A stretch of DNA of 47,336 nt, from assembly GCA_028876065.1 (NCBI GenBank), contig JAGWTI010000015.1, positions 1 to 47,336 on the forward strand, written 5' to 3'. The notes beneath the pieces were generated by a model that was not told the DNA's origin, ran no database searches, and worked only from the letters and a program-made list of their open reading frames with translations. This document shows, one piece after another, positions 13,351 to 35,389 of this stretch (position 1 is its first letter; each line of letters begins with the position of its first letter). This stretch comes from Nitrospirota bacterium. GTDB lineage: Bacteria > Nitrospirota > Nitrospiria > Nitrospirales > Nitrospiraceae. The translations under genes and the position numbers were made by a program.

Positions 13351-13365
13351 TACTCAAAGGAATTT

Positions 13366-17593: not shown

Positions 17594-17627
17594 AAAGGGC
17601 GGAGAGGGTCAACCCTCTCCGCCCTTT
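17594..17627. terminator. Two-way intrinsic terminator
   Basis: A perfect 15-base stem (AAAGGGCGGAGAGGG with its complement) and a 4-base loop TCAA sits between two convergent genes. The minus strand reads into five or more T after the stem, so termination of the long minus-strand envelope operon is strongest; it also closes the GAF-PilB gene. Confidence 0.9.
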
Positions 17628-17650: not shown

Positions 17651-18598
17651 TTACTTGATTGCCCGGACAATATCGCCGGCCTGAAAGCCGGTGCCCGACG
17701 AGACCTTGGCTTCGGACACACGATCGTTCGTGTGGCTGATCAACGCGATCTCGCCGATCAGCTTCTCCCTCTTGCCGAGCGACCGGCCGGTCTCCGGATC
17801 GATCAGATCCTGGCCGGCCCGGTAGACCCCGAGCTTGGCGCCCGGAGCCAGCTTCGACTTCTCCCCGGCCCGGATGATGACGGTGGCTCCATCCATCGCC
17901 AGTACGCGGCTGGTAAAGGGCAGCGCGTTCAGCTTGTTGATCATCTTTTCCATGACCTTCGAGAACGCATCCCGCAGAGCCCCGTCTCTCAATCCGACAT
18001 CCGCTGAGGATTTCGAACCGAATCCAAGCGCGCCGCCCGTCTCCTTGCGATATTCGCCCATTCCGGATTCGGCCAGCAGACTCTTGCCCGAAGCCACGTC
18101 CACCAACGAATAGTCCACCTGCACCCGCGCGATCTGGATTTTCTTCTGATAGACCAGCGCATCCGAGCCTTCTTCCACTTCCGAGTACGCCGTGATGGCT
18201 CCCTGGATACGGTAGTCGATGGATTCGAATCCCTCCGCGGCGTTCTTCTTGCCGGCCTTGACGGCGCCGGTTTGCTGGAGCTTGATCATCTCCTCCTGTT
18301 GCTGCATCCCCTCCTGGGTCACGTCGATCGGCTCCAACCCCGCGTTTTTGACCAGCGTCCGCAAAATATCCGTGGCGGACTCCCCCAGTCCCAGCACTTT
18401 GGATGGAGTCTTGTTCGCAAACTTGATGATCGCGACCGTGTATTGCGGCCCCGAATACTTCGCGCCAGCCGCCTCCATGCGCTGCGTCTGCCCCGTCACG
18501 CTGACGTCGTCTTTCACCTGCCCTGTCATCTGAGCCTGGCACCCGACCAGCGCAAACAGGCCGATGGCCACGAACCCTCTGCCCACCCTCTGTCTCAT
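17651..18598 (-). CDS. CsgG/HfaB-family lipoprotein
   Basis: A 315-residue lipoprotein with lipobox ALVGC (Cys20). Residues about 52-220 match the CsgG pattern: YTVAIIKFANKT, DILRTLVKNAGL, YRIQGAITAYSE and VQVDYSLVDVASGKSLLAES. CsgG forms a nonameric outer-membrane pore for curli subunits, and HfaB is its holdfast-anchoring relative. The C-terminal ~90 residues (VIIRAGEKSKLAPGAKLGVY, IGEIALISH) look like a FlgT C-terminal-type beta domain. It is the last gene of the 15-kb envelope operon, next to the two-way terminator. No curli subunit genes are present. AGGAGGG precedes the ATG. Confidence 0.82.
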   Translation of the reverse strand: MRQRVGRGFVAIGLFALVGCQAQMTGQVKDDVSVTGQTQRMEAAGAKYSGPQYTVAIIKFANKTPSKVLGLGESATDILRTLVKNAGLEPIDVTQEGMQQQEEMIKLQQTGAVKAGKKNAAEGFESIDYRIQGAITAYSEVEEGSDALVYQKKIQIARVQVDYSLVDVASGKSLLAESGMGEYRKETGGALGFGSKSSADVGLRDGALRDAFSKVMEKMINKLNALPFTSRVLAMDGATVIIRAGEKSKLAPGAKLGVYRAGQDLIDPETGRSLGKREKLIGEIALISHTNDRVSEAKVSSGTGFQAGDIVRAIK

Positions 18599-18628
18599 AA
18601 TCCGTCCCTCCTGTTGACGATGTTTGCG

Positions 18629-19465
18629 TTACTTCGCCGTTTCGGACGCCCCTCCCCCCGACCCCGTGACCAACATCGTGCCGTAGGTCTGATAGGAAGG
18701 CCCGCCCGGATAGTAATAGCCTTTCAAAAGGATGGACACGGCGGTAACCGCCTCCATGTGCAAAGGGGACTTCGTCGCCTTTTCGACCACCTTACCGGCC
18801 AAGCCGGCGAACATGTTCATCTCGGCGCTGCTGGCCTGCTCGGGCAGTTCGTGCCAGGGGGCCGGCACATCGTCGCCGAACAGGGCCGGCAACGCCGCAT
18901 CCCGGTCGGACATTCCGGATGCGACCGACGAAGCCGAGCCGGCAAGGGCCAATCCCGCGCTGACGAACGGAACCGAACTGAGCATGGTCCCTCCGGCCTT
19001 CGAACCCTGCTTGACCCCGATACCATTTTTCCAGACGGTTTGGCCCGTCTTGCAATCCACCAGCTTGCTCCGAATCCGGACCCGTCTGACATTGTAGACG
19101 CCGGTCACCTTCTCGTTGAAATCCTCCAGGGCACCATAGAACACCCCGTCCACCCCCAACGCTTCCCCCAATTTCTGCGGCGTCGCCATGTCGAGTTGGG
19201 CGCCCAACGTCACGCCCATCCGATCTTTGAGCAGTTGATCGACATCCTTCACCGGTTTGATGACATAGTAAAATTGGCCCAACTCCTCCACAAACAACTC
19301 CCGCACATAGGCCGGAGCCTCCACGTCGTTTGTGTTGTTGACCAACGGCAGTACCGCAATGGTCCTGATGGGGCTGGACGGGTTGCGGGTAATCGGCGGC
19401 AAGGTCGGGGCGCAGGCCGCCATCAATTGCAGCATGACCACAAGGACGAGCCACACCATCTTCAT
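18629..19465 (-). CDS. DUF799/GNA1162-like lipoprotein, copy 1
   Basis: A 278-residue lipoprotein from the ATG at 19465, chosen because AAAGGAG lies just upstream; lipobox LMAAC. The core IRTIAVLPLVNNTNDVEAPAY, VDGVFYGALEDFNEKV and LVDCKTGQTVWKNGIGV is typical of the DUF799 family, whose Neisseria member GNA1162 has a fold related to TolB-N/CsgG. The C-terminal ~130 residues are specific to this group. It is about half identical in its core to the next gene upstream, so the two arose by duplication. Probably an outer-membrane-associated structural part. Confidence 0.8.
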   Translation of the reverse strand: MKMVWLVLVVMLQLMAACAPTLPPITRNPSSPIRTIAVLPLVNNTNDVEAPAYVRELFVEELGQFYYVIKPVKDVDQLLKDRMGVTLGAQLDMATPQKLGEALGVDGVFYGALEDFNEKVTGVYNVRRVRIRSKLVDCKTGQTVWKNGIGVKQGSKAGGTMLSSVPFVSAGLALAGSASSVASGMSDRDAALPALFGDDVPAPWHELPEQASSAEMNMFAGLAGKVVEKATKSPLHMEAVTAVSILLKGYYYPGGPSYQTYGTMLVTGSGGGASETAK

Positions 19466-19533
19466 CCGACGTCTCCTTTCCATTAATCCCATCGAACGCA
19501 CCACCGCACCACCGCGCCAACGGCCTTGCCCGC

Positions 19534-20349
19534 TCAGCTGCCCGGCCCGGCCGGGACCGCCCCGGAACCGGCCCGAAGATGGTACTCGCGCTGGTTGTTG
19601 TCATAATAGGGATAGGACCCGTTCAGGAGCACTTGCACGGCGGCATTGGTTTCCACGAACAAGGGCATTTTCAACATACCGGTGAGCAGCCGCTCGCCGA
19701 GCGCCGCCGCGGCGGCCACGCCCACGTCGCTTTCTTTCGTCAACTGCTGGTGCGGCAGCTCGATCCACGGGGCGGCAATCGCATCGCCGAGCAGAGGCTT
19801 CAAGTCCTCCGCCGACTCCTTGAGGTCCATCACCGTGCCGGCCGCCGAGACGGCCGCGCCGGCCTTGCCCGTGCTCAGCACGCTCTTGACCCCGATCCCG
19901 TTCTTCCAGACCGTCCGGCCGGTCTTGCAATCGGCCAGTTTGATCCGGACGCGGACCCGCTTGACGTTGTAGATGCCGGTAATCTTGTGATTGAATTCCT
20001 CCAGCGAACCGATGAAGACTCCGTCCACGCCCAGCACCTCGCCCAGCTTCTGCGGCGTGGTCATGTCGAGCTGAGAGCCCAGCGTCACCCCCATTTGCTC
20101 CTTCATGAGCTGATCGGTCTCGACCAGCGGCTTGATGCGGTACTGATGCCTCTCCAGCTCCTTCGCGAACTGCTCGCGAACATAGGTCGGCGCCCCCACG
20201 TCGTTCGAATTGTTGACAAACGGCAGGATGGCCACCGTCCTGATGGGGTTGGCGGGGTTGGGAGCCACCGAGCGCACCCCCACGCAGGCAGGTAGCATGA
20301 CACATCCTGCGATCAATGATCCGACTATGAGGCCGCGCGTTGGTCTCAT
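19534..20349 (-). CDS. DUF799/GNA1162-like lipoprotein, copy 2
   Basis: A 271-residue lipoprotein with lipobox LPAC (Cys22). Shares with copy 1 the segments NPIRTVAILPFVNNSNDVGAP, MGVTLGSQLDMTTPQKLGE, VDGVFIGSLEEFNHKITGIY and DCKTGRTVWKNGIGV. The duplicated pair sits between the CsgG-like gene and the FlgT-like gene in the same operon. Conserved spacing of the WKNGIGV strand suggests the same fold in both, with variation confined to the middle loop and C-terminus. Function unknown. Confidence 0.8.
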   Translation of the reverse strand: MRPTRGLIVGSLIAGCVMLPACVGVRSVAPNPANPIRTVAILPFVNNSNDVGAPTYVREQFAKELERHQYRIKPLVETDQLMKEQMGVTLGSQLDMTTPQKLGEVLGVDGVFIGSLEEFNHKITGIYNVKRVRVRIKLADCKTGRTVWKNGIGVKSVLSTGKAGAAVSAAGTVMDLKESAEDLKPLLGDAIAAPWIELPHQQLTKESDVGVAAAAALGERLLTGMLKMPLFVETNAAVQVLLNGSYPYYDNNQREYHLRAGSGAVPAGPGS

Positions 20350-20403
20350 CGGCCTATCCTATCGTCCTGTTCCCCTGGAGCCTGCATCCATATCATAGTC
20401 GTC

Positions 20404-21648
20404 CTACTTTTGCACGGCGCCGCTTTTCCTGGTGGCCACGACCTCCAGCGTGTTCGCCGTCGCGCCGGTCACGTCCAGGTCCAACACACCGAAATCCTTT
20501 TTGGCCAGTTCGTCCCCGATCTGCTGCGCGGAGGATTTCGCATCCACCTCCAGGACCGCCATACCTCCTTCGAAGCTGCGCTGGATGACCGTCTGGACCC
20601 CGCGCACTTGCGACTGGAGAAACTCCTTCACCCGGATGAGATCTTTCATGCCGGCCAGGCCGCGGATCGTAATTTGCACCAATTGGCCGCCAGACGTCTC
20701 CCCCGTCCACTTGGCCGTGATCTGATCGATCAGTTTTTCGGCCACCTTCCTGGCGGCGTTTTCAATGGCTTGGTTCCCGCCCACATGCTGGGACACATGA
20801 CGGGCCGGCGCCGACTCACGCGCCGAGGCCAGGACCTGCCCGTTGTCCACGCGGATGGCGCTGACGGTGAGATCCGCCAGGTAGGAGCCGACGCTGCTGC
20901 CGGGGTTCCGCGGCCCTTCCTTGGCCAGAGCCTTGCCCTTGACGATGATCTCGGCCCCCATCTTTTTCCCGATCTCCCGTGCGCCCGTATCGGTGAGATC
21001 CGCCATCCGATAGGCATTGGAAATTTCAAACTTTCCGGTCACAGCCGAGATGTCGATGACGTTGAACCCCTTGTTCAGGAACTCTTCCTTCAAGATCGTT
21101 TCGGAGACTGCCATGTCCACAGTCTGCCCCGTGAAGGACTGACCGCCCTTGCCCCACCAGCTCCACCAGAAGGCGTAGATCTCCTGGCCGACGTTCTGTT
21201 CGGCGATCATGAACAGGGTGCGCGGTTTCCCCACTCGCGCCATCAATAGTCCCAACGCGCCCAGGTCGTTCTTCAGCGGCCCCACGGCGACGGTGGCCGA
21301 GATCGTGACGTTGTACAGGTCCTTCTGCGCCCCTTCCTTGACGATGTCGTATTTCTGGATGTACCCCTGGCTCTTGGAATAGATGCTGTCGCGGAGCACC
21401 TGGAAATTTTCGACCAGGGTTTCGGAAGCGATCATCGTCCCCACCGCCTGCTCCACCGCCTTGCGTTGGGCATCCCTGATCGCATTGTCCCGGGCAATTC
21501 CTTGGTCGCCGCCAAGAATGCCCGCAGTTCCCTCGGCCGTGACGCTTTGGCTCTGGGCCGACGCCGTCTCCGCTCCCAGCATCGTGACGAGCAACAGCAC
21601 CACGGTTATCACGTGATGTACAGGTCGAATAGCACGACGATACAGCAT
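20404..21648 (-). CDS. FlgT/LPP20-like exported protein
   Basis: A 414-residue protein from the ATG at 21648 (AAGGAG upstream); a longer frame runs into the upstream gene and is rejected. Signal peptide about 1-30 ending in ASAQS. The N-terminal GIARDNAIRDAQRKAVEQAVGTMI with LRDSIYSKSQGYIQKYDIV matches the FlgT N-terminal/LPP20 domain. A second alpha/beta domain follows (GKPRTLFMIAEQN...FEISNAYRMADLT), then a third repeat-like region with NQAIENAARKVAEKLIDQI and a late VVATRKSGA strand. FlgT builds the H-ring of sodium-driven flagella, but no flagellar gene is near, so a non-flagellar ring role is inferred. Confidence 0.75.
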   Translation of the reverse strand: MLYRRAIRPVHHVITVVLLLVTMLGAETASAQSQSVTAEGTAGILGGDQGIARDNAIRDAQRKAVEQAVGTMIASETLVENFQVLRDSIYSKSQGYIQKYDIVKEGAQKDLYNVTISATVAVGPLKNDLGALGLLMARVGKPRTLFMIAEQNVGQEIYAFWWSWWGKGGQSFTGQTVDMAVSETILKEEFLNKGFNVIDISAVTGKFEISNAYRMADLTDTGAREIGKKMGAEIIVKGKALAKEGPRNPGSSVGSYLADLTVSAIRVDNGQVLASARESAPARHVSQHVGGNQAIENAARKVAEKLIDQITAKWTGETSGGQLVQITIRGLAGMKDLIRVKEFLQSQVRGVQTVIQRSFEGGMAVLEVDAKSSAQQIGDELAKKDFGVLDLDVTGATANTLEVVATRKSGAVQK

Positions 21649-21658
21649 GATGGTCTCC

Positions 21659-23581
21659 TTATGCATGGCCGGTTGGCGCGGTGGACGCCGGGATGCGACG
21701 CAGCACCCGGTAAATCGGAACGGGCTCGACCTTGCCCTTGACCTTGATCGGCTCCATCTGTTCCACCTCCACCGCCTGTTTGACTTCGTCATAGGTGGCC
21801 TGCGTGATGACGATCTCCCCCGCTTTGGCATTCTGCTCCAAGCGGCAGGCCAGATTCACCGCATCCCCGATGACCGTATAGTCCAGAAAATCCTTCGATC
21901 CCAAGTTGCCCACCGTCACGTCGCCGGTATTGATCCCCATCCCGACCCCGATCGTGCTGCGCCCCTCCGATTCCAGCTTCTTGTTGAGCGCTGCGATCGC
22001 CTCTTGCATATCCAGCGCCATCAGCACGGCTCGCACCGCATGATCCGGCTGGGGTTCGGGGTTGCCGAAGAAGGCCATCACGGCATCCCCCATGAACTTG
22101 TCCAGGGTCCCCTCGTGCTGGAACAGAATCCGCGTCATCTCGGTGAAGTATTCGCTGAGCAGTCGCTGGACTTCCTCCGGCGCCATCTTTTCGGACATGC
22201 TCGTGAAGCCCCGGATGTCGGAGAAAAACATCGTCAACCGTTCCTTCCGCCCGCTGGGATTGGCCATATCCGGGTTCTTGACCAGCTGGTCGACGACCCG
22301 CGACGACACATACCGGCCGAACATGGCCTGCACCTGCCGGCGTTTCTGCCGTTCGACGTACCGCTGGTAGGATACCGCCGCGCCATATTGGGCGCCCAAC
22401 AGGGAATACATGGGCATGATGTCCAGCCAATAGTCGTACCGCCACAAGAGGAGCAACCCCGCCCCCCCGATCCCGAGGAACAACACCCACTTGGCTATCG
22501 TAGTCACGAAGGATCCGCGCTGGCTCTGAATCAGAATCGCCGTGCCCAGGAAGCCTTGCATCAACAGGATCATCGGCATGACGCCCCACTGGTCTTTGCT
22601 GCGGGTCACAAAGCGCCGGTCCAAAATCGTCTGGACCGCATTCGCGTGAATTTCGAACCCGTCCATCATGGCGCCGCGAACTTTTTCCTCCTGCTCCGTG
22701 TCGTCGAACTTCAAGGTGGTCGCCCGCTTTTGAAGGTACGGCGTGCAGTAATAATCATGGAGGGCTGGGGTCGAGGGGCCGATCAGCACGATTTTCCCCT
22801 GCACCGCACCGGGGGCCAACTCCCCCTTCACCGCCTTCCAAAAAGACATCCGGGGAAACGTCGCGGGCGGACCGTAAAAATGGATCCGCATCCGACCGTC
22901 GGGATAGGGAATCCGGAGTTGTCCCATCCCCAGTTCATCGCTATGAGAGAGGTCCAGCTCCTGTTCGCCCTGAGGCGCGTGATAGAGACGGGCCAGTTCC
23001 AGGCTCATGGCCAGAACCGGCTCTGGCTCCGGTCCCTCCCCGGAAAAGTCCAGCGCCAGCAGCGGCATGCCCCGCAGACACCGGTCTTTTTCCAACTCCA
23101 CGTTGATCAGGGCTTCACTGAGTTCCGCATCGCGGAATATCGGCAACGGCAGGCGGTGGCCTTTCTCCCCGATATAGCGGGCGAGCACGACATTCCCGGC
23201 CTTCTGAATGGCCTCGGCAAACGCCCGGTCTTGGGCGGGATCCTTGGGTTTGGAAAAGATGATGTCGAATGCGATCAGGGAGGCGCCCTGTTCCGACAGA
23301 TGCCGGACGGCCTCCGCATACATGGCGCGGGGGATGTCGTTCGCCCGGAGATTGAGGCGGTCTTCGGTTTCCTCGTCGATCCTGAGCAGGAGCACGGGGG
23401 TCGTCAGGGGGGTCTTGGGCAAGTGTTCGAAGAGCGTGTACCGGAGATCGTAGGAACGAAGCTCGACCCACTCGAAGGTGCCGGCCAGGTAGAGCAGGAT
23501 GATCGCCAGCGTCAACCCGCCGCCCCAGGCAACCCGGAGAACCTGCTCCCCTTTGAACCATTCAAGGTTCAGCTTGCCCAT
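21659..23581 (-). CDS. CHASE2-domain adenylate cyclase (class III)
   Basis: A 640-residue membrane protein. One N-terminal membrane helix (about 18-37), an extracytoplasmic CHASE2 sensor domain (about 40-325), three more membrane helices (about 333-395), then a cytoplasmic class III cyclase domain. Metal-binding Asp455 (FFSDIRGFT) and Asp499 (KFMGDAVMAFFG) are present. Lys563 and Asp567 occupy the adenine-specifying positions, and Asn576 and Arg580 the transition-state positions. It should therefore make cAMP. It lies inside the envelope operon, 10 bases before the FlgT-like gene, which suggests that it senses the state of the envelope assembly. Confidence 0.93.
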   Translation of the reverse strand: MGKLNLEWFKGEQVLRVAWGGGLTLAIILLYLAGTFEWVELRSYDLRYTLFEHLPKTPLTTPVLLLRIDEETEDRLNLRANDIPRAMYAEAVRHLSEQGASLIAFDIIFSKPKDPAQDRAFAEAIQKAGNVVLARYIGEKGHRLPLPIFRDAELSEALINVELEKDRCLRGMPLLALDFSGEGPEPEPVLAMSLELARLYHAPQGEQELDLSHSDELGMGQLRIPYPDGRMRIHFYGPPATFPRMSFWKAVKGELAPGAVQGKIVLIGPSTPALHDYYCTPYLQKRATTLKFDDTEQEEKVRGAMMDGFEIHANAVQTILDRRFVTRSKDQWGVMPMILLMQGFLGTAILIQSQRGSFVTTIAKWVLFLGIGGAGLLLLWRYDYWLDIMPMYSLLGAQYGAAVSYQRYVERQKRRQVQAMFGRYVSSRVVDQLVKNPDMANPSGRKERLTMFFSDIRGFTSMSEKMAPEEVQRLLSEYFTEMTRILFQHEGTLDKFMGDAVMAFFGNPEPQPDHAVRAVLMALDMQEAIAALNKKLESEGRSTIGVGMGINTGDVTVGNLGSKDFLDYTVIGDAVNLACRLEQNAKAGEIVITQATYDEVKQAVEVEQMEPIKVKGKVEPVPIYRVLRRIPASTAPTGHA

Positions 23582-23603
23582 GCTCGGCCCAGGCTCCCGC
23601 TGG

Positions 23604-26375
23604 TTATTTCCCGACTGCGTCCGGTTCTGGACCCTTCAGCGACGGCTTGAACTCCACGGCCCCCAGAAAGAGCCCCTCGTCCGGCGGGGATGCGCCCCAC
23701 CAGTTCTCGCGCGCCTCCAGAGGCAGAGACGAATGGTTGATGACGCCCCAGGCATTGTTCACGATGTTGTTGTGGTAGAGCGTCGGCTGCGCCCGCCCGC
23801 TGCAAATGACGGCCGCATTGTTCGTGTGGCCCGTCAACGTGGAATAGGCAATCTTGGGCGAAGACTTCCCCGCACATTCGACCGCACTCTGCAGATTGTG
23901 GGCAATGTAGGCGTGGGAGATCTCCGGATTGCCCTCCTTCACATGAATCGCCGTCGAGGCATACTCGACCCGTACGTGCCGGAGAAAACTCGGCTGCTGG
24001 CCGCCCCCTTCGAACCGGACTGCGCTGGCGTAGTCGCCGGGTCGCGGAGACGCGTTGGCGGAGGTCAGTACGATCGGGCGGGCCGCGGTGCCGAGCGCCT
24101 GGATCGCCCCGTCGCGCAGCACCAGACTGTTCTCCCCGGCTTTGAACCGAACGACCACGCCGGCCTGGATCGTCAGGACGGCCCCCTTCTCGATGATCAA
24201 CGAGCGCGTCAGCAAATAGGGGCTTTTGGCCGCCAACAAGAACGCCGACGCGGTCAGGGACCCGCCGAGCTCCGAGTCGAGAGCCGGCAACGTCATCGCT
24301 TTCCCGCCGGGCAACGGTCCATCCAGATAGTCCTTGATCAGGACGGCACCATCCACCTTGCGCAGGACCGCCGCTCCCTCGGTCGTCCCCCACCAATTTC
24401 CGCCGAAATCGACGCTGTCGGTCTGGCTGGCATTCCACCCCTGAACCGACCCGTTGTCCAGAATCTCATTGCCCCGGATCGACAGGCCAGGGGTCTTGCT
24501 CAAGGCCACACCATACCGTTTGTTCTGGGCGATCCGATTCGCGGTCAACGCCGGCGCCGCGGCGTCCTGCACAGAGACCCCGTCCTCGGTATTCAAGACG
24601 ATCTGGTTCCCCTCCAGGACCGGACGGGCCGTGGCATGGCGCACCAGTACCCCGACTTGGTTTTCCGTAATCTCGCTGGCCAAAATGGTCGGCGACGCGG
24701 CAAGGCAGCTCACGCCGGTTGCGGCCCCGGTCACCCGCACTCGTTCGAGCACACCGGCTTGGGTCCCCGTCTGATCGAAGACAATCCCTTTCCATGGTTT
24801 CTCCGGCTGCCCCTTGTCCGGAGCAAACACGATCATGGCGTCGGGCAACCCTCTTGCCAACATCCCCCCGCGCACCATCAAACCGCCGCCTTTGGACTGC
24901 ACCACCGTCCCCGGTTCGATCGTGAGCACGGCCCCCTGGGCCACCGTCACGTCGCCATCCAGCACATAGGGGCTGGCCCCGGCGTACCAGGTCGTATTCA
25001 AACTGATCGTCCCGCTCACCGGTGTCGGACCGGGGGCCACCGAGACCCCGATCAACGATTCGGACTGAGCGCTCTCGTTGCCCGCTTTGTCGAAGGCGGC
25101 GATCCGGTAATAGGCTGATTGCAGATTGGTCAGTTCGTTGGTATCGACAAACGCCGGGATTTCGCTCGTCGCCAGCGGCTCGAACCCGGTCAGAGCGGTG
25201 CCGCTCCGGTACAGTTTGTAGCCGGCCAAGTCCGCCTCCACGTTGGCCTTCCACCGCAAACTGATGGCCTTGTCCCGCCCGACCGCCGTCACTCCGGTCG
25301 GAACCGCCGGGGGCGTCGTATCGAGCGTCACCGGGCCCAGGGCATCCTCCCAATCGGTCGTCAGGCCCTTCCGATCCGACAGATGCCCCACGACCAGGAG
25401 CTGTTCGCCGTTGTCGCCCGGTTTGACCGTGTAGGTGCCGGTATAGATTCCCGGCTGGACCTCCTGCATGACCAATCCGGTTCTGACCTGGCCGAGGTCG
25501 AAGGTGGCCAGCATGTTCGGATCGCCCTTCAGACCGACTTTGATCTGGTCGCCGGCCTTGCGCATCAGCGTGGCCGAATCGTTGACGAACATCGTGACGG
25601 TCGGGGGACGTACCGCTTCGCCGATGCTGGCCCTGGGCAAGGTTTCGACCAAATCCCGGAACAGCTCTTCCGAGGCCCGCACGACTTCGATGTGCCGGAG
25701 CGCATAGGCGTTGGAGGCCAGGACGATAACGAGCCCGAGGGGGTCGGTGGCCCACCCGCCGGAATGGGATCGCGACACGTCCGAGGCTTCCCAGAGGACT
25801 TCACCGCTTTTCACATCCACCATGCGCACTTTCGCCCCGACGGCGACCTGCGCGTAGAGGCCGGCGTAGAGCTTGCTGAAGTGCGTGATGTCCCCGTAGA
25901 TGATCGCGTCGGCCTTGGTGATCTCCCCGAGCTTGGCCGGGGACAGCTTGGCGGTCTCCTCCGGCTTGACCAAGCCCTTTTCCTGGAGCAGCCGGTCCGT
26001 CACGATCGTGCGCTGGGTTTCGTAACGGCGGGTGGTGAAGTGGTTCACGAACGCCGTGCGGACGACGTACTCGGCTCCCTTTTCTTCCTCCTCGGCCTGA
26101 TGCCCGGTCTGGTTCACGAACGGAATCACCGCCACCAGACGCGGCGGCTGATCCGTGATGCGACTGCTGACCTTGTACTTGGCGCTGACAGCCTGCTTGA
26201 CCCCCTGCGCCACCCCGATGGCGCCTTGCTCGGTGGACGCCACGCAGCCGGCTACCGCGAAGCAGCCCGCGGCAAGCAGTGCGCAGGCGGCAACGAATCG
26301 GGTGTGGAGCCCGACTGGTTGCTTGGCACTGCATACGGCCTGCCGCCTTCCGCCTCCTGTCTCCAGGTCAGTCAT
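23604..26375 (-). CDS. Fusion lipoprotein: DUF799-like domain, Ig-like, FN3 and two beta-helix blocks
   Basis: A 923-residue lipoprotein with lipobox VAGC (Cys44). Domain order: a DUF799/GNA1162-like domain about 78-200 (RLVAVIPFVNQTG, ADAIIYGDITHFSK, VRMVDVKSGEVLWEA); an Ig-like region 257-345; an FN3 domain 355-445 ending in YYRIAAFDKAGNES; then right-handed beta-helix repeats 455-915. The helix has two halves that both begin with SPYxL and GAVLTIxxGxVV. Such helices bind or cleave polysaccharide in known families, but no catalytic residues are evident. The start overlaps the upstream gene by 8 bases. The combination joins an outer-membrane anchor fold to a long surface-type module. Confidence 0.85.
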   Translation of the reverse strand: MTDLETGGGRRQAVCSAKQPVGLHTRFVAACALLAAGCFAVAGCVASTEQGAIGVAQGVKQAVSAKYKVSSRITDQPPRLVAVIPFVNQTGHQAEEEEKGAEYVVRTAFVNHFTTRRYETQRTIVTDRLLQEKGLVKPEETAKLSPAKLGEITKADAIIYGDITHFSKLYAGLYAQVAVGAKVRMVDVKSGEVLWEASDVSRSHSGGWATDPLGLVIVLASNAYALRHIEVVRASEELFRDLVETLPRASIGEAVRPPTVTMFVNDSATLMRKAGDQIKVGLKGDPNMLATFDLGQVRTGLVMQEVQPGIYTGTYTVKPGDNGEQLLVVGHLSDRKGLTTDWEDALGPVTLDTTPPAVPTGVTAVGRDKAISLRWKANVEADLAGYKLYRSGTALTGFEPLATSEIPAFVDTNELTNLQSAYYRIAAFDKAGNESAQSESLIGVSVAPGPTPVSGTISLNTTWYAGASPYVLDGDVTVAQGAVLTIEPGTVVQSKGGGLMVRGGMLARGLPDAMIVFAPDKGQPEKPWKGIVFDQTGTQAGVLERVRVTGAATGVSCLAASPTILASEITENQVGVLVRHATARPVLEGNQIVLNTEDGVSVQDAAAPALTANRIAQNKRYGVALSKTPGLSIRGNEILDNGSVQGWNASQTDSVDFGGNWWGTTEGAAVLRKVDGAVLIKDYLDGPLPGGKAMTLPALDSELGGSLTASAFLLAAKSPYLLTRSLIIEKGAVLTIQAGVVVRFKAGENSLVLRDGAIQALGTAARPIVLTSANASPRPGDYASAVRFEGGGQQPSFLRHVRVEYASTAIHVKEGNPEISHAYIAHNLQSAVECAGKSSPKIAYSTLTGHTNNAAVICSGRAQPTLYHNNIVNNAWGVINHSSLPLEARENWWGASPPDEGLFLGAVEFKPSLKGPEPDAVGK

Positions 26376-27273
26376 AGACCACCACCACCCGTCCTTGTTG
26401 GAGGAAATGGGCCGTCGGCTCAGCCTGCCGGATCGCTTTCACCCCTTCTCCTCCGATCGTGATATCCGTCGCCTTGTCCCCGCTGGCTTTGACCCCCTTC
26501 ACGATCAGGGGATTGTCCGTCACACGGGCCTGGCGGCTCCCGGCCACCATATCCTTGGCGTAGCCGGCTACCCCCGCCTCCACCGCCTTGGCCCGATCGA
26601 GGACTTCGCTGGCATAGAATTCTTTCCCTTGCTCATCCAGCAGTTTGGGCGCCAGGGCCGGCCTGAGCCCAAGGCCGCGGGCATCCACCAGCAACCCCGT
26701 ATAGGCATCCGCGGCAACCACGGTCGGCGGCGGTTCGGCGGGAGCTCTGGGCGTAGGCGCTGGCTCAGGGGTCCTGGGAGCCGGATGAACCGGTTCGGCT
26801 GCCGGAACCTTCCGACCGAACCCTTTGGACACCACCGCATCGAAGAGTTCGCCGGTGAGAGACACTCCCACCGTCACCTCGACCCCACCGTCCGGCTGCA
26901 CCTCTTTCTTGATCACTTGCGCCCCTCTGACCAGACCGGTCACGCGGGTCTTGACCACATCGTCTTTGACGACGTAGTTTTCCACCAACGTGGCCGAATC
27001 CACTTGAATCCCCTTCACGGCTTCGAGCAGATTCCGGATGGCGACGGAAAAGGCCGCGCGCTCCGCCATGGCTCTGGCCTGCCCAGGACTCGAGGCCTTT
27101 TCCGGCGGCGCGCCGAGGCCTACCGCCGTGACAATCTTCGTCGTCCAGTTCACCATCCCTGGCCCGGCCGGTTCGATAGCGGCACCGTCGCTCTCGGCCA
27201 GAACCGGAACCGAGGCAGTGAGCGTCACGCTCGCCAACAACAGAAGCGGCAGCAATCGTATCGCGCTCAGCAT
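26368..27273 (-). CDS. LPP20-like exported protein, paralogue A
   Basis: A 301-residue protein with a cleavable signal peptide (about 1-26, ending VLAES) and no lipobox. The LPP20-type core runs about 38-140: PGMVNWT, GLGAPPE, QARAMAERAAF, NLLEAVKGIQVDSATLVENY and VRGAQVIKKEV. A Pro/Ala-rich linker about 150-195 leads to a second conserved domain with YTGLLVDARGLGLRPAL and a final GRVVVVYD strand. It is one of three tandem relatives. LPP20 includes FlgP, which forms an outer-membrane flagellar disk, so a ring or sheet-forming role is possible but unproven. GGGAG precedes the ATG. Confidence 0.75.
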   Translation of the reverse strand: MLSAIRLLPLLLLASVTLTASVPVLAESDGAAIEPAGPGMVNWTTKIVTAVGLGAPPEKASSPGQARAMAERAAFSVAIRNLLEAVKGIQVDSATLVENYVVKDDVVKTRVTGLVRGAQVIKKEVQPDGGVEVTVGVSLTGELFDAVVSKGFGRKVPAAEPVHPAPRTPEPAPTPRAPAEPPPTVVAADAYTGLLVDARGLGLRPALAPKLLDEQGKEFYASEVLDRAKAVEAGVAGYAKDMVAGSRQARVTDNPLIVKGVKASGDKATDITIGGEGVKAIRQAEPTAHFLQQGRVVVVYD

Positions 27274-27286
27274 ACCCGCTCCCTTT

Positions 27287-28285
27287 TCATCGGGACTCGT
27301 CCGACAGCGCAGCCAACAGACCGTCCGTCTCCGGCGACGCCTCCGGCGCCCTCCCTTCCATGCCTCCGATCAAGGGATCGGTCACAACGACCACCCGCGA
27401 GCGTCCCAAGACGCCCTTCATCTGCCCGTCTCCCCGGATCTTCTGCGCGTCATCGCTGCTAATCATGATATTGGCCTTGAGCGCGCCGGCCTTGTCGACG
27501 CCCTTGATTTTCAACGGTCGCCGCCCCTCCCGGGGCATCGGCGACAGTTGGACCGGCCGGATCACATAGGCCTCTTCTCCGAACCACGATGAGATCTTGG
27601 CGTCTTTGGGCAGCGTGCGGTATTGAACCATCCCCTGTTTCTCCGCCTCGGCCTTGTCGACGGTCTCCGGACCGTAGACCACCTGCCCCTTGTCGTCCAC
27701 GACTGCGGGAAAACAGGCCGGCTTGACGCCCAAGCCACGGGCATCGATCACCAGGCCCGTCGCCCCGTCGCCGGCCATGGAATCAGGCGGCAGGTCCTTC
27801 GGCTGCAACCCCTTTTCCGACACAAAGGCGTTGAGCAGCGAATCCGCTCCCCAGAGAGGCACCCGCACCGTGACTTCCACTCCGCCGTCCGACTGCACGT
27901 CGGTCTTGACCACCTGGGCGCCTCGGACAAACCCGTTGACTTGCGTCTTGATGACGTCGTTCGTGACGATATAGTTCTCCACCAGGGTTGCGGAATCCAC
28001 GCGGACCCCTTTCACAGCCTCAAGGAGATTTCTGACCGCCACGGCATAGGCGGCCCGCTGGGCCATCGCCCTGGCCTGACCCGGGCCCGACGACTTCTCA
28101 GGCGGCGCGCCCAAGCCCGTGGATTGAATCCATCCTTCGGTCCAATTGACCATGCCGGAGCCGCTCCGCTCGACCGTATCCAGCGCCACGCCCTGCGCCC
28201 AGGCCGGCCCGGACAGCCCCACGAGACAGGCCCATGCCAGGATCAGGCCGGCGCTTGTCACTCGCATGCGTCTCTTCACAGCCAT
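27287..28285 (-). CDS. LPP20-like exported protein, paralogue B
   Basis: A 332-residue relative of the neighbouring gene with the same layout: signal peptide ending GPAWAQG, then SGMVNWT, GLGAPPE, QARAMAQRAAY, NLLEAVKGVRVDSATLVENY and FVRGAQVVKTDV. The second domain has ATGLVIDARGLGVKPACFP and a late RSRVVVVTDP strand, followed by ~30 extra residues. The linker between the domains is much shorter than in paralogue A. The listed ATG is almost directly on the GGGAGGA ribosome site, so the GTG at 28279 or ATG at 28267 may be the true start. Confidence 0.72.
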   Translation of the reverse strand: MAVKRRMRVTSAGLILAWACLVGLSGPAWAQGVALDTVERSGSGMVNWTEGWIQSTGLGAPPEKSSGPGQARAMAQRAAYAVAVRNLLEAVKGVRVDSATLVENYIVTNDVIKTQVNGFVRGAQVVKTDVQSDGGVEVTVRVPLWGADSLLNAFVSEKGLQPKDLPPDSMAGDGATGLVIDARGLGVKPACFPAVVDDKGQVVYGPETVDKAEAEKQGMVQYRTLPKDAKISSWFGEEAYVIRPVQLSPMPREGRRPLKIKGVDKAGALKANIMISSDDAQKIRGDGQMKGVLGRSRVVVVTDPLIGGMEGRAPEASPETDGLLAALSDESR

Positions 28286-28303
28286 TCCTCCCGCGTCGGT
28301 CGC

Positions 28304-29473
28304 TTAGATTTTCAGGGACTCTTTGAACATCCGGATCGCCAGAAGCGCATCGGCGCCGCTGACCGGCTGACTGGCGCCGAACTCTCCGGTCACCTTGTCG
28401 GCTTCAAGAATGCCCCGACTGGTCATGATCATGGCGGCATTGAAGTAGTACAGATCCGGTCGCACGTCCGGGAACGGGGACTTCTGCCCGAAATATTGCG
28501 TGGCCAGCTTGTCGTCGTTGGTAATCCGAATCATAATGTCTTCGAGCATCGTGGCATATTCCGCCTTCGTGATCGGCTTGCTCGGCTCGAATTTATGGTC
28601 CGGTGACGGCTCCAGTCCCCGCACGCCGAGCTTCACGACCGTGTCGATATCGGCCTTGAGCGGATGCGTCGCAATATCCGTCGCCGGCTCCATCGCGACC
28701 ACCTTATCCGCTTGGAACGTTTGTCCCGGCGCCTTGAAAGACGAATCGAAGGTCTTGCCACGTTTCTCATAGAAGCGATCCAGTCCCAATTCCTCGATGA
28801 ACAGCGCCGCCACGTCGGCGCGGCTGATCTGGTCGATGAGCGCAATCTCCTTGCCGATCTTCGTGCCCGGCGCGGCGCGCTGAATCTTCTGCACCAGTTT
28901 CCACTCCCGATCCGCGTCTCCGACAAGGTCTCTATTGAGGTCCAGCACCGCCTTGAAATGCTCGGCGGCCTTGTCGAATTCAAAGCCCATCCGGTAGGCC
29001 CGCCCCATGTAGTAATGCAGCGCTGCGTTCTGCGGATCGATCTTGGCCCCGTGTTTGTACTCGGACTCGGCGTCCTTGAGCCAGTCGTCGCCACGTTCCA
29101 TCGTCAGTACACGGATTTTCATCACCTGCGCCACGACCATCGGCGGCTTCTGCAACCCTCGCGCCTTGTCGAGCGATTCATAGGCCTGGCTGAACGCCCG
29201 CTTTTGCCCATACACGAGCCCCATCCCCGCGTGGCCTGGAGCGTAATCCGCATCAAGCGCCACCGCCCTGGTAAATTCTTTCATGGCCCCGTCGTAATCG
29301 GCCTTGTCGAACAGCCTGAGGCCCGTCGAATAGTGATGCTCCGGCGTATCCAGCGCCGCCTCGGGCTTGACCCCTTCCTCTGCGCAGGCCGCCAATCCAA
29401 GCAGACACAGCGCCGCCAACGTGCGCGCCCATCCCCGCCATGTCCCGCTGCATGTCCTATTGATCGTATTCAT
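28304..29473 (-). CDS. TPR lipoprotein with SLH-like C-terminal domains
   Basis: A 389-residue lipoprotein from the ATG at 29473, chosen because AAAGGAG lies upstream; lipobox GLAAC (Cys30). TPR motifs span about 45-175 (HYSTGLRLFDKADYDGAMKEF, LHYYMGRAYRMGFEFDKAAEHF). The C-terminal half resembles S-layer-homology modules: DIATHPLKADIDTVVKLGV, KFEPSKPITKAEYATMLED and FPDVRPDLYYFNAAMIMTSRGI. SLH domains bind cell-wall carbohydrate, so the protein could tie the outer membrane or a periplasmic assembly to the wall. It separates LPP20-like copies B and C. Confidence 0.85.
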   Translation of the reverse strand: MNTINRTCSGTWRGWARTLAALCLLGLAACAEEGVKPEAALDTPEHHYSTGLRLFDKADYDGAMKEFTRAVALDADYAPGHAGMGLVYGQKRAFSQAYESLDKARGLQKPPMVVAQVMKIRVLTMERGDDWLKDAESEYKHGAKIDPQNAALHYYMGRAYRMGFEFDKAAEHFKAVLDLNRDLVGDADREWKLVQKIQRAAPGTKIGKEIALIDQISRADVAALFIEELGLDRFYEKRGKTFDSSFKAPGQTFQADKVVAMEPATDIATHPLKADIDTVVKLGVRGLEPSPDHKFEPSKPITKAEYATMLEDIMIRITNDDKLATQYFGQKSPFPDVRPDLYYFNAAMIMTSRGILEADKVTGEFGASQPVSGADALLAIRMFKESLKI

Positions 29474-29503
29474 CGCCAATCTCCTTTGCACGCGATACGG
29501 CGG

Positions 29504-30382
29504 TTAATCCAAGACCACCATCACGCGGGCCTTCTCCAAGAAGGAGAGATGTTCTTTCATACCGTGCAACGTTTGCGCATCGGCGTTGCTGATCACCAGA
29601 TCGGTCTTGTTCGGTCCGTCGGTCTTGATCGCCTTGACGACCAAGGGACGATCCGTCACCCTCGGATTGGATTGCGCCGCGGCGACATCCTTCAAGTACC
29701 CCACCATGCCCTGCTCCACCGCATACTGGCGGTTGACGAACGAGGATCCATAGACCTCCCGCCCCTCCTCGTTCCGGATCTTGGGCACCATGGCGGGCCT
29801 GACGCCGGTGCCGCGGGCGTCCACGATCAACCCGGTATACGCCGTCCCGTTGGATGCTTGCGGAACGGGCATCGGCGCGGCCGGGGCTTGGGCCGGCGGC
29901 ACCGGCATCCCGCCGCCGGTCTGTTTCGGGATCATGGTATTCAGGAGATCGCCCTGCAGCTTCACCCCGACCAGCACTTCAACCGACCCGTCCGGATTTG
30001 CCTGTTTCTTGAGAATCTGCGCGCCTTGGACGAAGCCGCTGACCTCCGTCTTGATGATGTCGCTGCTCACGATGAAGTTTTCCACCAACGTGGCGGAATC
30101 CACGCGAATCCCCTTGACGACCTCGAGCAAGTTGCGGGTGGCCACGATGAAAGCGGCCCGTTCGGCCATGGCCCTGGCCTGAGCCCGGTTGACCGCGTTT
30201 TCAGGCGGCGCCCCCAGGCCGGTGGCCGTGATCATGCCCGTCGTCCAATCCACCCCGCCGTTGCCCATCGATTCGATGACGTCGCCCACCCGGCCGCCCA
30301 CCTGAGCCGATGCGGCATTGACGAAGAGCAAGAGCCCGGCCAGGCACAGGGCCACGCTCCGATGTGTCGTTCGCTGATTCAT
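29504..30382 (-). CDS. LPP20-like exported protein, paralogue C
   Basis: A 292-residue protein with a signal peptide ending NAASAQV and no lipobox. Core motifs: NGGVDWT, GLGAPPEN, QARAMAERAAF, NLLEVVKGIRVDSATLVENF and FVQGAQILKKQ, then a Pro/Ala linker and YTGLIVDARGTGVRPAMVP, ending in KARVMVVLD. It is closest in architecture to paralogue A (medium linker, same final strand). A strong AAGGAGG precedes the ATG. With A and B it makes a three-copy set within 4 kb, suggesting a hetero-oligomer of related subunits. Confidence 0.75.
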   Translation of the reverse strand: MNQRTTHRSVALCLAGLLLFVNAASAQVGGRVGDVIESMGNGGVDWTTGMITATGLGAPPENAVNRAQARAMAERAAFIVATRNLLEVVKGIRVDSATLVENFIVSSDIIKTEVSGFVQGAQILKKQANPDGSVEVLVGVKLQGDLLNTMIPKQTGGGMPVPPAQAPAAPMPVPQASNGTAYTGLIVDARGTGVRPAMVPKIRNEEGREVYGSSFVNRQYAVEQGMVGYLKDVAAAQSNPRVTDRPLVVKAIKTDGPNKTDLVISNADAQTLHGMKEHLSFLEKARVMVVLD

Positions 30383-30432
30383 TATCGCCTCCTTGTTCTG
30401 TAATCCGATCCCGTTTCAGCGCCGCGAAGCGC

Positions 30433-31626
30433 TCACCGTCCCAGCAGCTCTTCGTAGAGCCCCATACGCTCCGTGACCCGCTTGAGGTAATTTCTCGTTT
30501 CCTCCGGCGTCTTTTCCGTCAACACGGCAAACAGCTCCTCCCCTTGCATGTCCTGGACCCGATAGGGCCCCATGATCTTCTTGCGAATGTTGCCCGGGCC
30601 CCAGTTGTAGGCGCAGATGACCAGATAGTTCTTCTTGTCCCCCGGCGGCACGTCCGAGAAGCTTTTATTCATCAGCAAGTAGAGATACGCGGCCCCCAGC
30701 TCCACGTTCTGCGCCGGCTGAAACAAGTACTCGTCGTCCAGCACCTTGTCGTCGTTGTAGATGTAGTTATAGGCATCCCTGGCGCCCGTCCTGGGCACCA
30801 ACTGCATCAGTCCGTACGCCGGAGCCTGCGATTGGGCCTTGGGGTTGAAGTACGACTCGGTTTGGATGACCGCCAGAACCAGGCGAGGATCGAGTTGTCG
30901 GCGGCGGGACTCGGCTTGCACGGTGTCCAGGTACTGCCGGGCCCGCTTCTTGAGGTGGTCCGGCGTCATGTTCACCTTCGCCGTAACCTGCACCCGGGAC
31001 ACGCCGTCTCGCGACTCGGTCGGTTTCTCGTCCACGACCAGGTTCGGAAGCACCTCCTGCTGCACAAAGGCTTTGGCGGTCTTGGGCTCGACCGGCCTGC
31101 CCTTGCTGGTGGTCATCTGGCCGGCCAGAATCGCCCGTTTGGCGTCCCCCTTTTCCGACAGGATCTGTTCCAATTGCCTGGCAATCTCCGCCTGAGCCGC
31201 GGCCAGCTGCTCCGGCGACGGGCGGCCCGGCTTTGCGGCCGGAACCAAGGTCGCGATCTCGACCGTCCCCTCTTCGAAGTTGACGATGCTGCGCGAATCG
31301 TTGCCGGGTGAATAGTCCACCCATTCCTTCCGGGTCGAGCGTTGGGCCTGGGCCCATTTTTGCTCGATGGCCCGCTTCCGGTCCTGCCAGCGTTGTTCGA
31401 TTTCCAATTCCCGTTTCCGCCACTGCCCTTCCATTGCCGCGCGCTTGGCTTGGAACTGGTCCTGGATGCTCTGCAGCGACTCCTCTCCGGCGCTTTTGCG
31501 CTCTTGAAACCGCTTGTTGATCTGCTCAAAGGGATCGGCGGACTGGGCCTGCGCGAACCCGCCTGAGAAACCTGCCCAGGCCGTCAGCGCCGCACCCAAG
31601 ACAACCGGTCTCAGCCGCCGTTCCAT
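30433..31626 (-). CDS. MltC-like lytic transglycosylase
   Basis: A 397-residue exported enzyme from the ATG at 31626; a longer start at 31653 lies inside the upstream gene. Signal peptide about 1-28. Residues 35-105 are a charged coiled coil (QERKSAGEES...ERRW-type heptads), followed by a DUF3393-like domain to about 220. The SLT catalytic domain is 235-390 with Glu257 in VIQTESYFNP, AYGLMQLVP and AYNWGPGN. It cleaves peptidoglycan to form 1,6-anhydro ends. No lipobox is seen, unlike E. coli MltC. In this operon it probably opens the wall for assembly of an envelope-spanning structure. Confidence 0.9.
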   Translation of the reverse strand: MERRLRPVVLGAALTAWAGFSGGFAQAQSADPFEQINKRFQERKSAGEESLQSIQDQFQAKRAAMEGQWRKRELEIEQRWQDRKRAIEQKWAQAQRSTRKEWVDYSPGNDSRSIVNFEEGTVEIATLVPAAKPGRPSPEQLAAAQAEIARQLEQILSEKGDAKRAILAGQMTTSKGRPVEPKTAKAFVQQEVLPNLVVDEKPTESRDGVSRVQVTAKVNMTPDHLKKRARQYLDTVQAESRRRQLDPRLVLAVIQTESYFNPKAQSQAPAYGLMQLVPRTGARDAYNYIYNDDKVLDDEYLFQPAQNVELGAAYLYLLMNKSFSDVPPGDKKNYLVICAYNWGPGNIRKKIMGPYRVQDMQGEELFAVLTEKTPEETRNYLKRVTERMGLYEELLGR

Positions 31627-31636
31627 CGCGCGTCCC

Positions 31637-32497
31637 TTATTGGCGGACTTCATAGGGCAACGTCGTCTCGGTCCAGTCTTCGTCGTCGAGTTCGGCCAGC
31701 CGCTTCACGACGTCACGGATCATGCCCACGTCCATCCCCTCAAAGGTTTGGAACACCCCGTTCGGCGGCTTGTCGGATACCAAGGCGATCGCCTTTCTCG
31801 TCGCGATCACCTTGATATACTCCATCGCTCGCTTGGCGTTCTTGGGCAACAGCACACGCAGCTTGACGCCGAGGGCTCGGAGGCGCTCGTCCGGCACGAA
31901 ATAGTCCTGGTTGGCTTGGAACAAATTATCGGTGCGGAAGCGATTGGGCAGGAGCAACGTCACCGAGCCGTCCTGCGTGACGCTAAACACGTGCAGGTAG
32001 GCGGGCTGGCTGGATTGCACCTTGATCAAGGCCTCCTCCCCTTCCTGAAAGACCGTCTTGTTCAGCGAGGCACGCAGACTGAATCCAGCCCGTCGTTCCA
32101 CACGGACCGGGCGGACCCTCGCTTTGACCTTGCTGTGCCACACCGCCAGTTTCGGGCCAGGCCGTTTGTCGGAAATTTCCTCGATATGCTCTTCGAGCCA
32201 CTGTTCTTCCTCGATCACGCCTCGCGCCACGGAGGACACCAACTCATCCGTGATCATGGAATTGTGCAAGACGGTGGTGCCGCGCACGAACAGCCCTACG
32301 GCTTGCTCGATGGCATTCCGCCTGGCTTCGTCCCGCGCCTTGCCCCGCACTTCGTCCAAGGACATTTCACTCAGAAAGGGGGCCATGCCCTCGGCCGTCA
32401 CCCAGACCCCGGCCGCCGGTTCAGCCCAAGCCGCCCCGTTCCCTATGGCCCCCATGGCGAACAAAAACAAGAGGAGAAGCACCCGCCTCATGCGCAT
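31637..32497 (-). CDS. DUF4384 protein with N-terminal FlgT/LPP20-like segment
   Basis: A 286-residue exported protein from the ATG at 32497 (or 32491). Upstream codons in the same frame overlap the promoter and are rejected. Signal peptide about 1-26 ending AAWAE. The first domain has EVRGKARDEARRNAIEQAVGLFVRG, the same helix pattern as the FlgT-like gene in this operon. The second domain is DUF4384-like (FSLRASLNKTVFQEGEEALIKVQSSQPAYLHVFSV then VTLLLPN). DUF4384 is often fused to kinases or caspases in bacteria; its role is unknown. It is the first gene after the operon promoter. Confidence 0.8.
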   Translation of the reverse strand: MRMRRVLLLLFLFAMGAIGNGAAWAEPAAGVWVTAEGMAPFLSEMSLDEVRGKARDEARRNAIEQAVGLFVRGTTVLHNSMITDELVSSVARGVIEEEQWLEEHIEEISDKRPGPKLAVWHSKVKARVRPVRVERRAGFSLRASLNKTVFQEGEEALIKVQSSQPAYLHVFSVTQDGSVTLLLPNRFRTDNLFQANQDYFVPDERLRALGVKLRVLLPKNAKRAMEYIKVIATRKAIALVSDKPPNGVFQTFEGMDVGMIRDVVKRLAELDDEDWTETTLPYEVRQ

Positions 32498-32593: not shown

Positions 32594-32622
32594 AGGATAG
32601 GAGGAAACCAGAAAAAAGTCAA
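32594..32622 (-). promoter_or_regulatory. Promoter of the 15-kb envelope operon
   Basis: On the minus strand, TTGACT (32622-32617), a 17-base spacer with a T-rich start, and TATCCT (32599-32594), about 97 bases before the first gene. Gaps further along the operon are 68 bases or less, and no other clear promoter was seen between here and 17651. Confidence 0.7.
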
Positions 32623-32664: not shown

Positions 32665-33624
32665 CTAGGGATGGACGGCATCCGACCGGCTGGCCGACTC
32701 ACGCAGGCTGTTGAACTCGGCTTCGAATTGGGACGCTTCCCGTTGCCGCCCTTGCTCACGCAAGAGCACCATGGCTCGATTCAGCTCCGCCAGGGCTTTG
32801 GCAATGTCGCCGATCGCGCGATAGCTCCAGTAGGCCCGTTGCGCATAGTTCAACGCCGCCTCTTGTTGGTGTTGTTGCTGCAGCACGCGCGCCAACCCGG
32901 CCAAGTCTGCGGCGACGGCAGCCCGGTGCTCGCTTGCCTTATCCAACTCCAGAGCCGCTTCGAACCGTCCCTGGGCCTCGCCCCATTGCCCGGCCTGTTC
33001 GGCCAGCAAGCCCAGATTGGCCAGATTGGCCGCCTGAGCCGGCCGATCCTGCAACTCCTGGTTGATGGCCAGGGCCGCCTTGAAAGAGGCGTCTGCCTTG
33101 GCTCGTTCACCGGCTTTGAGTTCCAGCAACCCGATATTGTTGAGCAACACCGCCTCGCTGTGCCGGTTTTCTGTCGAGCGGGCTTCCGCCAAGGCCTGTG
33201 CATACAAGGATGCGGCCCTTGCCGCCTCGCCTGCCACCTGAGACGCCGTGCCCAGGTGAGCCAACGAATCGACGAGCACATCGGCTCGCCCGAGGTGCCG
33301 GGCTATATCCACGGCCTGTTGGTGCAACGCCAGAGCTTCGCGCACCTGCCCTTCCGCCAACGCCACGGACCCGAGGCCGTTCAGCGCCAGGGTCAAGCCG
33401 GGCAGGTCGTCCAAGCTTTCCGCCAGTAATCGGGACTCCTCGTAGGCGCTTCTGGCCCGCTCCAGTTCGCCCTGCTCCGCCAGCCGTTGCCCGCGCGCAT
33501 ACAGATCGAGGATCTTGCTCCCCCATTCGGGGGCCGGCTCCGGCGGAGCTCCGGCGGCACAGGCCACCAACATGCAGGCGCCACAGGCAAGGACCAGGCC
33601 CTTTGTCAGCCGAACCACCTTCAC
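32665..33624 (-). CDS. TPR-repeat lipoprotein at the end of the Mla operon
   Basis: A 319-residue lipoprotein with lipobox VACAA (Cys22). Nearly the whole mature chain is TPR helices, about seven repeats (for example ALALHQQAVDIARHLG, AASLYAQALAEARSTE, GRFEAALELDKASEH). The GTG start overlaps the stop of the mlaD-like gene by 4 bases (GTGA), so translation is coupled. It occupies the place where mlaC or mlaB would be in the classical operon, and may serve as a docking partner for the MlaD hexamer or for an outer-membrane component. That role is inferred from position only. Confidence 0.85.
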   Translation of the reverse strand: MKVVRLTKGLVLACGACMLVACAAGAPPEPAPEWGSKILDLYARGQRLAEQGELERARSAYEESRLLAESLDDLPGLTLALNGLGSVALAEGQVREALALHQQAVDIARHLGRADVLVDSLAHLGTASQVAGEAARAASLYAQALAEARSTENRHSEAVLLNNIGLLELKAGERAKADASFKAALAINQELQDRPAQAANLANLGLLAEQAGQWGEAQGRFEAALELDKASEHRAAVAADLAGLARVLQQQHQQEAALNYAQRAYWSYRAIGDIAKALAELNRAMVLLREQGRQREASQFEAEFNSLRESASRSDAVHP

Positions 33625-34622: not shown

Positions 34623-34665
34623 AGCCCACCCCTCTCTCCGGTAGAACCCCCAGGCACACGACAGA

Positions 34666-35388
34666 TTATTGCAAGTAGTCCTTCATGGCTTCGTCGGCCG
34701 ACGCCAGCAGCTCTGCATAGCGTCCTTGACTGTGGATATGCCCATCCCGCATGAAGGCCAGCCAATCCACCATCGTCAGGAGGGCCGAAGCCCGGCGGGT
34801 CGTCGCCAAGATCGTCAGCGACCGGGCCTGCCGCTGCGTCCGCAGCAATTCCCCCAAACGCCTGATGGAGATGGCATCCAATCCTTCCAGCGGATCGTCC
34901 AAGAGCAACAGTTCCTGATCCAGCGACAGGGCCCTGGCGATCGCCACGCAACGGGCTTCCCCCTGGTTCAGTTCGGCGGGAAAGCGATGGCGGAACTCCG
35001 CCACCCCCAGAGCCTCCAGACGGGCCATGACCAGCGGCTCGATCTCCTCGTCGGACAGGCCCCGGTGGTACCGCAACGGGAGCGCCACGTTGTTATAGAC
35101 GGTCATATTGCTGAGCAGCCCCGGCGCCTGCAGGACCGTTCCCACTCGTGTGCGCAACTCCGCCATTTCCTCTTCGTCGAGGGCGCTCAGATCCTGCCCG
35201 AACAATCTCGCGGTGCCCTGCTCCGGCGTGACCAGCCCGGCACAGAGCTTCAAGGCCAGGCTCTTGCCGCTCCGGTTCGGTCCGATCAAGGCGCAGGCCT
35301 CGCCCGCTTCGAGCGACAGGGTCAGGTCGGACCATCCGCCATGCCCCTCCATTTCGACCCTTGCGCCGGCCAGCTCCAGAATCGGCAT
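34666..35388 (-). CDS. mlaF: MlaF-like ABC ATPase with degenerate catalytic motifs
   Basis: A 240-residue ABC ATPase that should pair with the MlaE-like permease one base upstream. Walker A is GPNRSGKS (36-43). Other motifs are altered: the signature LSGGQ is LNQGE (140-144), the catalytic Glu after Walker B is Asp165 (LLLLDDP), and the H-switch His is Thr197 (ILATTRR). The D-loop GLD remains. The gene is full length, in frame and tightly spaced, so it does not look like a decaying gene. ATP binding looks possible, but hydrolysis may be slow or depend on an atypical mechanism. Confidence 0.88.
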   Translation of the reverse strand: MPILELAGARVEMEGHGGWSDLTLSLEAGEACALIGPNRSGKSLALKLCAGLVTPEQGTARLFGQDLSALDEEEMAELRTRVGTVLQAPGLLSNMTVYNNVALPLRYHRGLSDEEIEPLVMARLEALGVAEFRHRFPAELNQGEARCVAIARALSLDQELLLLDDPLEGLDAISIRRLGELLRTQRQARSLTILATTRRASALLTMVDWLAFMRDGHIHSQGRYAELLASADEAMKDYLQ

Positions 35389-35389
35389 G

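Follow-up and report, generated by a model that had tools for sequence, protein, structure and literature searches.

To our knowledge, FlgP-type rings are known solely as accessories of the flagellar motor, such as the basal disk of Campylobacter and Vibrio, which is built from a member of the LPP20/SHS2 family. The Campylobacter motor scaffold has been deposited as 9HMF, and ring formation in the family is reported to correlate with the presence of an insert that separates the SHS2 helix from the second strand (PMC12222027). We take chain C of this entry, a 171-residue lipoprotein present in three copies, to be the FlgP trimer. Other described systems with comparable parts are Tp0624 of Treponema pallidum, with its D1-D2 domain tandem, the GNA1162 lipoproteins of Neisseria (4HRV) and the curli channel CsgG. 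A further one is the HP0018/HP1457 (Cj0089-Cj0091) operon of Helicobacter and Campylobacter, where a TPR lipoprotein linked with an LpoB-like lipoprotein co-precipitates MltD and AmiA and has an envelope phenotype (PMC11394524).

The locus described here, from a Nitrospirota bacterium, is made of known kinds of parts in a new combination. It lies in a window of 47,336 nucleotides, which is one entire contig of a 3.41-Mb draft genome. Twelve minus-strand genes run head to tail from 32497 to 17651, with intergenic gaps of -17 to +54 bp and nothing interrupting the run; the preliminary description recognized the consecutive run and counted eleven genes in it, while its own list names twelve. Along transcription they encode a DUF4384 protein, an SLT transglycosylase, LPP20-like protein a, a TPR-SLH lipoprotein, LPP20-like proteins b and c, a GNA1162-beta-helix fusion, a CHASE2 cyclase, a FlgT-like protein, two GNA1162 lipoproteins and a CsgG-like lipoprotein. 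The putative promoter, TTGACT-N17-TATCCT (32594..32622, minus strand), had been called clear. It is a weak match, with just 9 of 12 consensus positions, and its position and spacing are kept in 6 of 6 operon genomes: TTGAC[T/A]-N17-TAnC[C/T]T stands 5' of the DUF4384 gene with a constant 17-base spacing in the window, G031, G180, G068, G136 and G108, the chance expectation being 0.03 matches per whole window. Because the six-genome comparison conserves both the box and the spacing, we accept this promoter despite its weak consensus. The single terminator proposed earlier is borne out by a strong Rho-independent hairpin with a 16-bp stem and a T-run (17597..17624, minus strand; -32.1 kcal/mol, z -7.6), which lies directly 3' of the last gene and is common to the operon and a convergent pilB-like gene. 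By every sequence sign, the twelve-gene set is co-transcribed. Elsewhere in the window, a caspase-like (Peptidase_C14) protein encoded at 2927-4366 has an N-terminus weakly similar to LptE/TolB_N/LpoB, and the contig end (46599-47336) carries 5S and partial 23S rRNA, where ORF calls are spurious.

Five products of the operon align with Campylobacter FlgP gap-free over 59 residues, a stretch that covers the SHS2 helix, the ring-forming insert and the strand. These are the N-terminus of the DUF4384 protein, which has a signal peptide (31637..32497, minus strand; PF14326 3.1e-15; ungapped z 6.3), LPP20-like proteins a (29504..30382, minus; z 12.2), b (27287..28285, minus; z 13.3) and c (26368..27273, minus; z 12.3), and the N-terminus of the FlgT-like protein (20404..21663, minus; z 5.1), which also bears a LipL46/DUF6175-type domain (FlgT_N 1.6e-07, LipL46 1.8e-17, below cut-off). 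Nine other local proteins gave no such alignment and reached an ungapped z of at most 2.8, and a 39-residue region has the same length in 26 relatives. FlgP is also the best solved-structure match of both the DUF4384 profile (9hmf_C, E 0.025) and the FlgT-like profile, and the two proteins match the LPP20 set in profile comparison with E 7e-6 and 2e-6, respectively. The Pfam LPP20 matches of the LPP20-like proteins are below cut-off (2.6e-05 for b, 3.8e-04 for c); the family assignment made in the preliminary description is backed by profile searches, in which the LPP20 profile matches 9hmf_C with E 4.7e-17 and further FlgP entries with about 1e-4. These three proteins are not lipoproteins, since on sequence reading no lipobox is present in them, nor in the DUF4384 and FlgT-like proteins. 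They thus differ from FlgP of the basal disk by the missing lipobox and an extra domain, and their locus differs by having no flagellar genes. The idea of ring proteins, raised earlier, gains support from the five FlgP-type helices and inserts and from carrier genomes that lack FlgH, the rings themselves being predicted.

The extra domain is of the Tp0624 D2 type. LPP20a-c match D1-D2 over nearly their whole mature length, with profile positions 44-286 aligned to 5jir 13-264 (E 7.7e-17) and the tandem uninterrupted, and Tp0624 is their closest two-domain structural relative; unlike it, they lack the OmpA-like D3 and occur in three copies per operon. Tp0624 is a monomer even though its insert region is covered by the alignment and has the same length, so that the insert is no guarantee of rings. 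Nor is the insert universal, as it is missing from a small LPP20 copy encoded elsewhere in G193. Such small copies outside the locus had been suspected to be flagellar FlgP; the G193 copy, the one fully read, lacks the insert, and none of the genes called next to it is flagellar. An AlphaFold2 model of LPP20a with relatives (pLDDT 39) was too low in confidence for use. Judged from these alignments, ring formation by the SHS2 proteins of the operon is plausible.

Four products are CsgG/GNA1162-fold lipoproteins. The two GNA1162 (DUF799)-like lipoproteins (19534..20349, minus strand, PF05643 5.7e-13, profile to 4hrv 6.1e-13; 18629..19504, minus, PF05643 4.9e-16) and the right-handed beta-helix fusion (23604..26375, minus; PF05643 5.2e-15, PF13229 1.2e-17) had been recognized before, and their domain assignments by sequence profile are firm, the three domains scoring, from highest to lowest, 59.3, 55.9 and 49.3 bits against a cut-off of 25.9, with lipobox-like sites. 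In contrast to Neisseria GNA1162, one copy is fused to a long beta-helix and the genes are linked to FlgT-like and LPP20-like ones. The fourth, the CsgG/LpoB-fold lipoprotein (17651..18598, minus), was described as CsgG-like, which holds at the level of superfamily fold (hhalign to the GNA1162 profile, E 1e-7) and of lipoprotein nature; its CsgG score of 19.2 bits is below the Pfam gathering score of 20.8 and level with that for LpoB (19.7 bits, also below cut-off). Its C-terminal domain, absent from curli CsgG, matches TsaP (6ve2/3jc8). The TPR-SLH lipoprotein (28304..29491, minus; TPR_11 6.9e-12, SLH 1.2e-06, lipobox LAAC) is as previously described and is a candidate outer membrane-to-wall tether.

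The cyclase and the transglycosylase appear to retain their catalytic residues. The former (21659..23581, minus strand; PF05226 2.1e-43, PF00211 1.3e-32) is a CHASE2-class III nucleotide cyclase whose Lys/Asp specificity residues, read from the sequence, are of the adenylate type, in agreement with the cAMP-type cyclase proposed earlier. The latter (30433..31653, minus; PF01464 4.4e-26) has an intact SLT domain and a TES motif with the catalytic Glu; its designation as MltC-like needs qualification, since Mltc_N is weak, the lipobox is absent and the score of 149.6 bits is below the NCBIfam cut-off of 375.

The block is flanked by the convergent pilB-like gene and, directly upstream on the same strand, by a Mla/MCE operon overlooked in the preliminary description (MlaE, MlaF, MlaD/MCE and a TPR lipoprotein; 32665..36238, minus; PF02405 2.2e-59, ABC_tran 5.8e-25, MlaD 8.6e-16), which is a unit of its own. 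The operon is rare: of 197 sampled genomes of the class, 5 carry the full block and 1 carries a variant. The order is conserved across four or more genera: it is kept in full in G031, G068, G180 and, over two contigs, G136, while some carriers lack single GNA1162 paralogues and the G108 variant has no LPP20c, fusion or transglycosylase at that place. Scattering of the genes among relatives had been named as one outcome that would speak against a common assembly; linkage was found to be kept across genera. In G064, from another family, LPP20a-b-c, the fusion, the cyclase and DUF4384 are consecutive. Dependence on the pilB-like neighbour was rejected on account of G136, where that gene has shrunk to a short remnant (L035 on contig C30, 12173-12385) beside an intact operon. 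A decayed locus was seen in a reduced genome (L157, G162:C16:15000-34926, at 12921-15129), where pilB, DUF4384 and SLT fragments surround an intact LPP20a.

The site also exists empty: in G028 and G062 the four Mla/MCE genes face the pilB-like gene with no block between them, 41 bp apart in G028. G193 and G149 have a three-gene core of DUF4384, LPP20b and cyclase beside the same pilB-proS-rseP neighbourhood. In the pilB tree, six carriers of block or core are split from eight non-carriers with support 100/100. A recent foreign origin was considered and is not indicated by base composition, the G+C of the block, 0.624, being equal to that of its flanks, 0.62. On these grounds we infer that the block grew vertically within a single lineage, starting as a small core and reaching twelve genes. 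Viral contigs were searched for CsgG-like and LPP20 relatives and none were found; a scan of genome contigs returned a single partial relative, from Nitrospira sp., and this named hit together with the other relatives assigns the genome to the Nitrospirales.

Parts of the block recur separately. A FlgT-GNA1162-CsgG trio stands alone in several families of the class, and its first protein has no FlgT_N domain there. The FlgT-like version in the block bears the FlgP-type domain that these trio relatives do not have, a fusion which hints that two modules cooperate. In a deep relative (L112, 9797-11173), the GNA1162 protein of the trio has an extra C-terminal domain, LolA/DUF4412-like by eye. The trio and an LPP20-DUF4384 pair are no more than about 20 kb apart in G028 and G117. 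In other Nitrospirales this pair adjoins Ser/Thr kinases and an FHA-SLT fusion, so the combination of LPP20, DUF4384, transglycosylase and signalling protein is met again with another sensor. At L074, L076 and L088, in other Nitrospirales, LPP20 stands beside a ShlB-type transporter, an exoprotein, kinases and the FHA-SLT fusion; L074 and L076 also have DUF4384, and L076 and L088 also encode a CHAT-TPR protein. This arrangement is a separate signalling/secretion cluster.

FlgH, the product of the flagellar L-ring gene, is encoded in G000, G031 and G068, and in the genome of the window it lies outside the locus, which was overlooked earlier. No FlgH match is listed for G136 (97% complete) and G108 (95%), and the 129 listed matches include neither G064 nor G180, absence from these draft genomes being provisional. 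As several carriers have no FlgH, the operon is not tied to the flagellum, and its retention without this gene suggests that it probably builds another envelope structure. The earlier proposal that the linked genes form an outer-membrane assembly, neither flagellar nor curli, is upheld by the linkage across genera.

The explanation we favour, tentatively and at somewhat less than even confidence, is that the operon encodes a non-flagellar periplasmic scaffold attached to the outer membrane, probably one or several rings or disks, which would organize the connection of the outer membrane to the wall or maintain it. The SHS2 proteins would oligomerize laterally beneath the outer membrane and be anchored there by the CsgG/GNA1162 lipoproteins, the TPR-SLH lipoprotein would bind the wall, the transglycosylase would clear room in it, and the CHASE2 domain may sense the periplasmic state and report it via cAMP. 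In favour of the scaffold we count the FlgP-type alignments, the conserved order, the carriers without FlgH and the recurring LPP20-DUF4384-transglycosylase-signalling neighbourhoods; against a ring scaffold we count the Tp0624 monomer and the rarity of the operon.

Alternatively, the operon may be an envelope-maintenance set without a ring, in which the LpoB/GNA1162-like lipoproteins, the LPP20 proteins and the transglycosylase, next to the Mla transporter, would regulate wall growth and the integrity of the outer membrane independently of one another. This is rather unlikely in our estimate: five insert-bearing FlgP-type SHS2 domains in one operon exceed what such a set needs. Still, it accommodates the monomeric Tp0624 and the equal scores of the CsgG-like protein to LpoB and CsgG, and the Mla operon is directly upstream in G108 and in the full-block genomes whose flank is covered. 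The HP0018/HP1457 operon is a precedent for it, with its TPR lipoprotein linked to LpoB-type lipoproteins and its lytic transglycosylase partner (PMC11394524). That operon differs in having two or three genes and no cyclase. We know of no Mla neighbour for it.

A trans-envelope export or secretion port, with a CsgG-like pore, FlgT/LPP20 rings and a wall-opening enzyme, is possible and less likely still. It was the function suggested in the preliminary description, and the CsgG fold at superfamily level, the transglycosylase and, in three relatives, an LPP20 protein adjoining a two-partner secretion transporter and an exoprotein would agree with it. However, a pore role of the CsgG-like protein has no sequence support: in a profile search of solved structures none of the CsgG structures was matched, and E. 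coli CsgG aligns weakly and over the soluble core only. In that alignment the region of the first hairpin is shorter by about 5 residues and the second hairpin is unaligned. AlphaFold2 of the protein alone (pLDDT 32) was too low in confidence for use. No curli partner genes (CsgE/F/A/B) are among the annotated neighbours at the locus, where the absence of curli and flagellar subunits had been correctly noted, no cargo gene was found there, and domain searches recognized no beta-barrel protein among the operon products. Two-partner secretion as the cargo route, raised by the three relatives, was rejected, since genomes with the block in full or variant form have no ShlB/FhaC transporter; none was found in G000, G031, G068, G136, G180, G108 and G064. 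A role as accessory disk, whether for the flagellar motor or for a type IV pilus, is very improbable, since, for all its FlgP/FlgT-type domains, the FlgH of G000, G031 and G068, the convergent pilB-like neighbour and the TsaP-like C-terminal domain, the operon is kept in genomes without FlgH and beside the pilB remnant of G136, and most FlgH-positive genomes do not have it.

The periplasmic scaffold may also be conceived in a more specific form, as an undescribed non-flagellar outer-membrane machine of stacked distinct FlgP-type rings with CsgG/GNA1162 lipoprotein anchors, a wall tether and a cAMP sensor of its own, which would have arisen within a single lineage of Nitrospirales out of the three-gene core of DUF4384, LPP20 and cyclase; in this form it is a real possibility, albeit a doubtful one. 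If true, an operon with five FlgP-type domains that persists in genomes lacking FlgH would mean that ring proteins are active outside the flagellum, which would have a bearing on the origin of basal disks. The operon supplies candidates for the envelope organization of Nitrospirales, a little-known subject.
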